DNA of 43,573 nucleotides, from positions 1-43,573 of the forward strand of contig SHYZ01000006.1 of the NCBI GenBank assembly GCA_009692535.1, given 5' to 3'. The first letter of the stretch is position 1, and each line of letters opens with the position of its first letter. The stretch comes from Myxococcales bacterium (GTDB lineage: Bacteria; Myxococcota_A; Polyangia; Haliangiales; SHYZ01). The notes beneath the pieces are model-generated. The model made no database searches. It saw only the letters and a program-made list of their open reading frames with translations, and was not told the origin of the DNA. Shown piece by piece: positions 3,127-37,833 of the stretch. The translations under genes and the position numbers were made by a program.

Positions 3127-3162
3127 CGCGCTACGTCGCGACCGGTCGCGCTACGTCGCGAC
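3127..3162. repeat. 16-bp direct repeat and palindrome between convergent genes
   Basis: CGCGCTACGTCGCGAC occurs at 3127-3142 and again at 3147-3162. The junction creates a perfect 14-bp palindrome, CGCGACCGGTCGCG, at 3137-3150. It lies between the stop codons of ppsR and the convergent thioredoxin-like gene, whose TAG stop (3153-3151) lies in the second copy. A bidirectional terminator-like hairpin is plausible; there is no T-tract. Confidence 0.55.
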
Positions 3163-3723
3163 AGTCTGCTCGAGCGTGTAGCCGACCTTGCGCGCCCACT
3201 GCGAGCGCGGCCACCGCTCCACGATGCGGGCCCACTCGGCGCGCGCCATGTCGAAGTTCTTGGTCTGCCGGTAACGACTCACGCCCCACCAGAACGCCGC
3301 CTCGGGCGCACGCTCAGCGCCATCGGTGTCGACGACCTGCGCAAAGAGCGCGTGCGCCTCGTCGTAGCGCTTCGCACCCATCGCCACGATCGCGCGGCCG
3401 TACGCGGTCTCGGCGAGCAGGTCGGCCACCGGCAGGAAACCGATCTGGATGTTGGCCGCGCGCTCGTCGGTGTCGACCACCGCCATGCCAGGAAGCCAAC
3501 GGACGCCGAGGCGCCGCGTCAGCTCAGGGTGCTTGCCGCTCTCGAGCTTCACCGCGACAAAGTGCTGTGCGAGCTCCTGCACGACATCGTCATGTGGATG
3601 CGTCACGGCATCCATGGCGTGACAGCCAAGTCAGGAGGGGCTGTAGAGGAAGAGATAGAGCGGGCGCGAAGTGGAGCGCGCTTCGGCGAGTGCCGTGTCC
3701 CAGTTGTCATGCCAGCGGATCAT
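3151..3723 (-). CDS. Thioredoxin-fold protein, probable selenoprotein (in-frame UGA at the CxxC position)
   Basis: The visible ORF starts at 3615, but the same frame continues upstream to an ATG at 3723 through a single TGA (3633-3631, codon 31). With that codon read through, the N-terminus is a standard thioredoxin-like start: WHDNWDTALAEARSTSRPLYLFLY, then SPS-TGA-LGCHAMD. This aligns with YSTCHWCHVME-type motifs of thioredoxin/DUF255 proteins, so the TGA replaces the first Cys of CxxC (U31-L-G-C34). The rest (190 residues in all) has LGVRWLPGMAV, the cis-Pro strand, and a TPR-like C-terminal half. Codons before the TGA keep the G/C-ending bias, so the region is coding. A SECIS-like hairpin begins 7 nt after the TGA. 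Sec is inferred; a TGC-to-TGA sequencing error or a recent nonsense mutation is the alternative. It lies 59 nt after the amidohydrolase gene, same strand. Confidence 0.75.
3602..3623 (-). promoter_or_regulatory. Bacterial SECIS-like hairpin downstream of the in-frame UGA
   Basis: Read on the minus strand, GTCACG (3623-3618) pairs perfectly with CGTGAC (3607-3602). Inside lie one C-C mismatch and a CA/TG helix, closed by the tetraloop TGGA (3614-3611). The loop begins 17 nt after the UGA and has G in its first two positions. Published bacterial SECIS rules as I recall them ask for an apical loop 16-37 nt after UGA with a G among the first two loop bases, and this meets both. The helix overlaps codons for CHAMDAVT. 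Confidence 0.6.
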
Positions 3724-36642: not shown

Positions 36643-36666
36643 GTTACAAGGCCCCTAGAGGCCACC

Positions 36667-37833
36667 GTGCGCGAGATCTACCTCGACAACGCCGCGACGA
36701 CGTTCCCCAAGCCGGAGGAGGTCTACCGCGCCATCGACCGCTGGATGCGCACGCAGGGGGGCTCACCGGGGCGCGGGCTCTACCGTCGCGCCGTCGACGC
36801 TGAGGAGATGGTCTCCGACACGCGCGAGCGGCTCGCCGCGCTGCTCGGCGCCGGCGATCCGACGCGCATCGTGCTGACGCAAAACTCGACCGAGGCCCTC
36901 AACATGGCGCTCAAGGGCTACCTCCGTCCCGGCGACCATGTGGTGTCGACGGTGCTCGAGCACAACGCCGTGGTGCGGCCGCTCTGGGCGCTCGAGAAGC
37001 GCGGCGTGCGCGTCACCACCGTCGAGTCATCGGCCGAAGGGGAGCTCTCCGCCGATGACGTCGTGCGCGCGCTCCGCCCCGAGACACGGCTCGTGGTCTG
37101 CGTACACGGCAACAATGTGCTCGGCAGCATCACGCCGATCGGTGAGATCACGCGCGTCGCGCACGAGCACGGTGTCGCGGTGCTCTGCGACGGCTCGCAG
37201 ACCGCCGGCACGCTCCCGCTCAACGTGCGCGAGCTCGGCATCGACCTGTTCGCGTTCACCGGCCACAAGGGCCTGCTCGGTCCGACCGGGACCGGCGGGC
37301 TCGTCGTCGGGCCGCGCATCGAGCTCGAGCCGCTCAAAGAGGGCGGCACCGGGTCGCTCTCGGAGAGCCCCGAGCCGCCGGACTGGCTGCCCGATCGGCT
37401 CGAGCCGGGCACGCCGAACACCTTCGGCATCGCGGGACTGCGCGCCGGCGTGATCTGGCTCGCCGAGCGCGGCATCGAGTGGGTGCGCGCGCACGAGGCC
37501 GCACTCTCGCAGCGCCTGCTCGAGCGGCTGCTCGAGATCCGTGGCGTGACCGTCTACTCGCCGCGCACCGCCGACCGGCGACTCGGTGTCGTGTCGCTCA
37601 ACTTCGACCACCTCTCGCCGACCGACGCGTGCGGCATCCTCACGAACAAGTTCGGCATCGACGTGCGCTGTGGGCTGCACTGCTCGCCGCTCACGCACCG
37701 CCGCATCGGCACCGAGGGGACCGGCACGCTGCGCATGTCGGTCGGCGTGTTCACCACCGAGGCCGACGTGGACGCCGCCGCCGACGCGGTGCAGAAGATC
37801 TCCAACCTGCTCTACCGTCGGAGCGTCGCGTGA
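36667..37833 (+). CDS. Cysteine desulfurase / selenocysteine lyase-like class V aminotransferase
   Basis: A 388-aa PLP enzyme from GTG 36667 (GAGG at 36658-36661). It opens with REIYLDNAATTFPKPEEVYRAIDRWM, has TQNSTEALNMALKG, HNAVVRPLWALEKRG, CDGSQTAG and the Schiff-base Lys in FTGHKGLLGPTGTGGLVVG. The cysteine loop near the end is VRCGLHCSPLTHRRIGTEGTGTLRMS. This is the EF2568-type (TIGR01977) group, related to NifS/SufS desulfurases and Sec lyases; from memory, some members sit next to selD. It would release sulfur or selenium from cysteine or selenocysteine. It overlaps the MetRS-like gene by 4 bp, strongly suggesting they act together. Confidence 0.85.
   Translation: MREIYLDNAATTFPKPEEVYRAIDRWMRTQGGSPGRGLYRRAVDAEEMVSDTRERLAALLGAGDPTRIVLTQNSTEALNMALKGYLRPGDHVVSTVLEHNAVVRPLWALEKRGVRVTTVESSAEGELSADDVVRALRPETRLVVCVHGNNVLGSITPIGEITRVAHEHGVAVLCDGSQTAGTLPLNVRELGIDLFAFTGHKGLLGPTGTGGLVVGPRIELEPLKEGGTGSLSESPEPPDWLPDRLEPGTPNTFGIAGLRAGVIWLAERGIEWVRAHEAALSQRLLERLLEIRGVTVYSPRTADRRLGVVSLNFDHLSPTDACGILTNKFGIDVRCGLHCSPLTHRRIGTEGTGTLRMSVGVFTTEADVDAAADAVQKISNLLYRRSVA

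Follow-up and report, generated by a model that had tools for sequence, protein, structure and literature searches.

The locus raises the question whether a TGA codon lying inside a thioredoxin-like reading frame of a Myxococcales bacterium is a stop or encodes selenocysteine (Sec). The window (the whole analysed stretch, 43,573 nucleotides of contig SHYZ01000006.1) carries the gene on its minus strand, on which the original prediction was silent. Translated with TGA as Sec, the frame gives a 190 aa product (MIRWHDNWDTALAEARSTSRPLYLFLYSPSULGCHAMDAVTHPH...) and stays open for 159 codons past the UGA (Table 1). As predicted, a single in-frame TGA occupies codon 31, the first residue of a CxxC-type site (SPS-U-L-G-C-H), and the conventional ORF obtained by mechanical gene calling begins downstream of it and lacks the active site, as had been foreseen for automatic callers. 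Sequence comparisons indicate that this TGA almost certainly specifies the active-site Sec of a thioredoxin-like enzyme.

Table 1. Features of the putative selenoprotein locus and other genes of the window discussed in the text
Feature	Position	Strand	Basis or remark
Putative selenoprotein gene, 190 codons plus TAG stop (ATG 3723, stop 3151)	3151..3723	minus	Read through in-frame UGA
In-frame TGA, codon 31, predicted Sec of the U-L-G-C motif	3631..3633	minus	Sole TGA in the frame
Codon 34, putative resolving Cys of UxxC	3622..3624	minus	Nearly invariant in a 44-row alignment
Conserved predicted bSECIS, UGGAUGC-CGUGAC-GCAUCCA	3595..3614	minus	MFE structure and covariation; G-U at loop positions 2-3
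Originally proposed hairpin, GUCACG C CA UGGA UG C CGUGAC	3602..3623	minus	Sequence present; overlaps the conserved hairpin
Thioredoxin-fold domain, residues 1-103, with invariant Pro78	3415..3723	minus	PF13899 42.4 bits, PF13098 31.5 bits
TPR-like tail, residues 104-178	3190..3414	minus	TPR Pfam matches below threshold; helical region
Conventional ORF, 154 aa, starting at ATG 3615	3151-3615	minus	Mechanical gene calling
Lipoprotein-like amidohydrolase gene	5465-3783	minus	
BamA-like gene	6852-5470	minus	
PDZ/protease-like gene	8171-6849	minus	
Cysteine desulfurase family protein gene	36664-37833	plus	TIGR01977, 428.8 bits (cut-off 377)

A first scan of public-genome contigs with the window protein as single query gave no matches. 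A second scan of public genomes, based on an alignment that included two artificial bait sequences modelled on such proteins and used solely for choosing search patterns, recovered two natural full-length relatives with E-values of 6e-30 and 1e-27, one from a Syntrophorhabdaceae bacterium and one from a deltaproteobacterial assembly. Both have a TGA at codon 31 and align with the window protein over residues 1-179, the alignment with orthologues spanning the full gene at an E-value of 6e-30. With a three-sequence profile, the full-length family was detected in 84 of the 395 genomes of the phylum of the Syntrophorhabdaceae bacterium, and most matches hold exactly one TGA. Residue 31 was read in 92 non-duplicate members and is encoded by TGA in 81 (window included), is Cys in nine and another residue in two; none of the Sec members has a second TGA before residue 120. 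Trp4, Sec/Cys31, Pro78 and Gly95 are invariant in a 44-row alignment, and Gly33, Cys34 and Trp76 are nearly so. The window protein is divergent, with 23-33% identity to the family and a ULGC motif where UIGC is typical. In addition, a Cys-type clade (L144-L151) has for the most part lost its second Cys (C-x-G-S), and in two of its members the place of Sec is taken by Thr or Glu; these proteins are possibly altered or redox-dead paralogues.

The homologue alignment had been named as the place to look for Cys or Sec at residue 31, and the TGA found there in 80 other members far exceeds chance. At the level of sequence comparison we regard this as the decisive evidence, since a TGA placed so repeatedly cannot be accounted for by sequencing error, by a pseudogene or by chance. 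An error of sequencing or assembly, the true codon being TGC or TGT (Cys), is very improbable: the sequence comes from a single assembly and Cys is the equivalent residue in nine of the 11 non-Sec members, but the TGA sits at the same codon throughout the 80 others and the covarying SECIS described below, needless in a gene for a Cys protein, is retained in the window.

The conserved hairpin downstream of the UGA (spacing of 23 nt to the loop, loop CGUGAC, 7 bp, -9.6 kcal/mol) satisfies the published bSECIS rules, namely a G in the first two loop positions, a spacing of 16-37 nt, a loop of 3-9 nt, a stem of 4-16 bp and an MFE of -7.5 or below (PMC13188914). Of 250 random TGAs of the window (70.5% GC), 73% are followed by a rule-meeting hairpin down to -7.5 kcal/mol and 62% by one at least as stable as the window's best, so that single-sequence SECIS criteria are valueless here. 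Covariation was evaluated across 79 distinct Sec genes. Six inner pairs, between alignment columns 21-26 and 33-38 (3613-3608 and 3601-3596 in the window, where the helix is predicted to have one extra pair, 3614-3595), are formed in 93.5% of cells, against at most 65% in slid-register controls. Compensatory double changes number 29, compared with 7.3 in shuffles, and none of the 500 shuffles reaches 29. Typical stems of the family are GGAUGC-GGUUAC-GUAUCC, GGGUGC...GUACCC and AAUACG-GGUC-CGUAUU. The window is unique in the set in carrying a C at column 34, on the 3' side of its pair, which turns the G-U of the family into G-C; the change replaces a Tyr or Phe residue by His, and the loop retains its G-U. 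RNAalifold called only three of the pairs in the Sec alignment, a signal probably diluted by shifted-register stems in one subgroup.

The bSECIS-type fold expected after the UGA is thus found as the predicted MFE structure, at 3614-3595 and not at 3602-3623. The letters of the hairpin first put forward are present, as is its UGGA loop at the 17th nt after the UGA, but as the SECIS this candidate was rejected: it pairs in only 50% of cells across the 79 Sec genes and does not exceed chance expectation.

Two variants of the element were observed within the family. One subgroup (L113, L118, L120-L122, L124, L125, L132) combines the motif F-W-[FY]-D-G-U-x-G-C-A with the stem AAUACG and a GGUC tetraloop, as in the SECIS loop of E. 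coli fdhF. In another (L117, L123, L127-L131, L133), the SECIS stem is seemingly shifted by a base.

These features also bear on the possibility that the UGA is a real stop, belonging either to a pseudogene or to a shorter gene starting from the downstream ATG. The very long branch of the window gene and the failure to see selC and selD in its assembly would fit such a case, which we nevertheless consider very improbable, given the open codons after the UGA, the retention of Trp4, Cys34, Pro78 and Gly95, the same TGA in the other members and the compensating change, unique to the window, that preserves a SECIS pair.

Among the four sel genes named in the original prediction, two are present in the genome of the window: selA (E 4e-143) and an intact, full-length selB (307.9 bits, cut-off 242) coding for both SelB winged-helix domains. 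The other two, selC (tRNA-Sec) and selD, were not found above cut-off in its own assembly, which is 80% complete; the matches to the tRNA-Sec model obtained there were tRNA-Leu, Ser, Tyr, Gly and other ordinary tRNAs, and were rejected. The simplest reading is that both genes sit in the missing fifth of the assembly. Of 34 sampled genomes from the same family or order, 30 have selA; tRNA-Sec was detected in 15 of 18 relatives, one of them a genome of the same family in which it was confirmed by ARAGORN. The genome harboring the Syntrophorhabdaceae orthologue (G411) also has a tRNA-Sec. Elsewhere in the window, the cysteine desulfurase family protein strongly resembles the selenocysteine lyase SclA (349, cut-off 525) and is a possible selenium donor.

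The gene very probably codes for a cytosolic thiol/selenol-disulfide oxidoreductase in which UGA31 is decoded as Sec via the conserved bSECIS. This reading stands on comparison, through the open frame across the UGA, the equivalence of Sec and Cys at residue 31, the covarying SECIS and the genomic selA and selB. The idea of a UxxC thioredoxin-fold selenoprotein with a TPR-like tail is supported in this respect, being backed by the Sec and Cys orthologues, the SECIS, selA and selB, and the tRNA-Sec of relatives, and none of the findings named beforehand as contradicting it came up, although only half of the selABCD set was seen. Against it, the own assembly has no tRNA-Sec and no selD above cut-off, the protein is divergent, and it is the sole full-length member in the sample of its phylum. 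From the comparisons we infer actual Sec insertion, the redox reaction and a role for the tail. SelB and Sec-tRNA(Sec) would decode the UGA as Sec, guided by the bSECIS; Sec31 would then attack, or be oxidised by, the substrate, and Cys34 would resolve the selenylsulfide, following a UxxC chemistry of the DsbD-gamma/thioredoxin type. The homology to DsbD-gamma and thioredoxins makes disulfide exchange the likely reaction, in which Sec31 would be the nucleophile and Cys34 the resolving residue. The TPR-like tail would probably dock a protein partner.

Pfam matches over residues 2-103 are Thioredoxin_7 (42.4 bits), DsbH (32.4 bits) and Thioredoxin_2 (31.5 bits), with a cut-off of 27 for each. 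With the family profile, DsbD-gamma ranks among the closest relatives of solved structure (E 4e-14). The AlphaFold model, built from three sequences, is weak in the thioredoxin part (mean pLDDT 64.5, below 50 for residues 27-36), and no active-site geometry is therefore claimed. The tail is modelled as a helical region with pLDDT of about 72-90; its best structural likeness in the PDB is the TPR domain of YbgF, but none of the matches of the model reaches significance. No hydrophobic N-terminus or signal peptide is present in the window protein, which is therefore predicted to be cytosolic; across the family, such an N-terminus occurs in a single member.

Among the 119 families in a catalogue of prokaryotic selenoproteins is a 'thiol:disulfide interchange protein' with PF13098 and UxxC, represented by WP_011366075.1 (PMC13188914, Table 1), and Sec-containing proteins of that name have been described in Syntrophus aciditrophicus, Geobacter metallireducens and G. 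uraniumreducens (PMC1794560). The present family shares with them UxxC, a single Sec, the occurrence in deltaproteobacteria, a DsbD-gamma-like fold and PF13098, which is matched by all 44 members examined (window protein 31.5 bits, cut-off 27). However, the table of PMC13188914 makes no mention of a TPR-like tail, and the window member belongs to another phylum and is very divergent. Most likely, the protein is a divergent member of these known selenoproteins, a match made through PF13098 and UxxC.

Other relatives are more distant in architecture. The N-terminal thioredoxin domain of YyaL/DsbH-type proteins (PF03190, DUF255) aligns at about 30% identity, but these are longer proteins with Cys at the Sec position, a CHWCH motif and no counterpart of the tail, and are paralogues rather than orthologues. 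Two selenoprotein models match the window protein through their Trx-like domain: the Trx7/PDZ (seleno)protein NF041199 (27.8 bits against a cut-off of 300 for a 390-position model, Trx part only), which uses CxxU in a different architecture, and TsoB NF045694 (28.8 bits against a cut-off of 805), whose architecture also differs and whose best E-value in the family is 3e-17, with only the Trx part matched in those inspected. The DsbD C-terminal (gamma) domain is a periplasmic part of a membrane protein and uses Cys, whereas the window protein stands alone, lacks a signal peptide and has Sec and a TPR-like tail. In NCBIfam 20.0, neither the window protein nor the first two orthologues score above the cut-off of any model, and the family-wide scan gave, by name, partial Trx or TPR matches only. 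We found no description of the Trx-TPR architecture in the literature searched.

Neither the 378 other sampled genomes of the phylum of the window nor its 56 nearest relatives yielded a further full-length member; the matches there are tail-less paralogues sharing the thioredoxin domain, most of them YyaL/DsbH-like and carrying Cys in place of Sec. Some of them (G215:C146, G147:C247, G185:C15, G105:C44, G230:C198) match with one in-frame TGA, but in at least some its position varies with the extent of the match, so that it may fall beyond the gene's end. In the tree, the window gene branches at the base of the Sec clade, in an uncertain position and with a branch length of 2.64; such a very long branch makes it probable that the gene was acquired horizontally or that the family was widely lost in the phylum, and the tree cannot say which. 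The isolation of the gene, together with an assembly contamination of 2.13%, could also mean that the contig or the gene is a contaminant, still coding for a selenoprotein, but one of another bacterium. We consider this most unlikely, as the PpsR gene next to it shows 76% identity within the same family and 63-70% within the order, a gradient that follows the kinship of the lineage and indicates a native contig.

As to the rank of the family, it is rather doubtful, though conceivable, that the Trx-TPR UxGC proteins form a separate selenoprotein family that neither the 2026 catalogue of 119 families nor NCBIfam 20.0 includes. Such a family would occur in roughly one in five of the genomes sampled from one large phylum and be mis-annotated systematically, and the window gene would be an outlier that another phylum acquired horizontally. 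Routine callers stop at the UGA and start at 3615, which deletes the catalytic site from the annotation; since no NCBIfam model reaches its cut-off for the members scored, database entries may be truncated throughout the family. Moreover, the family-wide covarying SECIS and the mixture of Sec and Cys allow direct tests of how Sec is exchanged for Cys and of what the TPR-like tail does. With the window gene, the family reaches a second phylum, in a lineage that commonly possesses the Sec machinery.

Finally, an action on envelope proteins of the adjoining operon had been suggested. It is unsupported, as the protein has no signal peptide and the neighbors are not conserved across the family, no neighbor cluster occurring at more than seven of about 91 family loci. 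In the window itself, the upstream PDZ/protease-like, BamA-like and amidohydrolase genes are tightly packed on the same strand, and the selenoprotein gene, separated from the last of them by 59 nt, may be the last cistron of this run.
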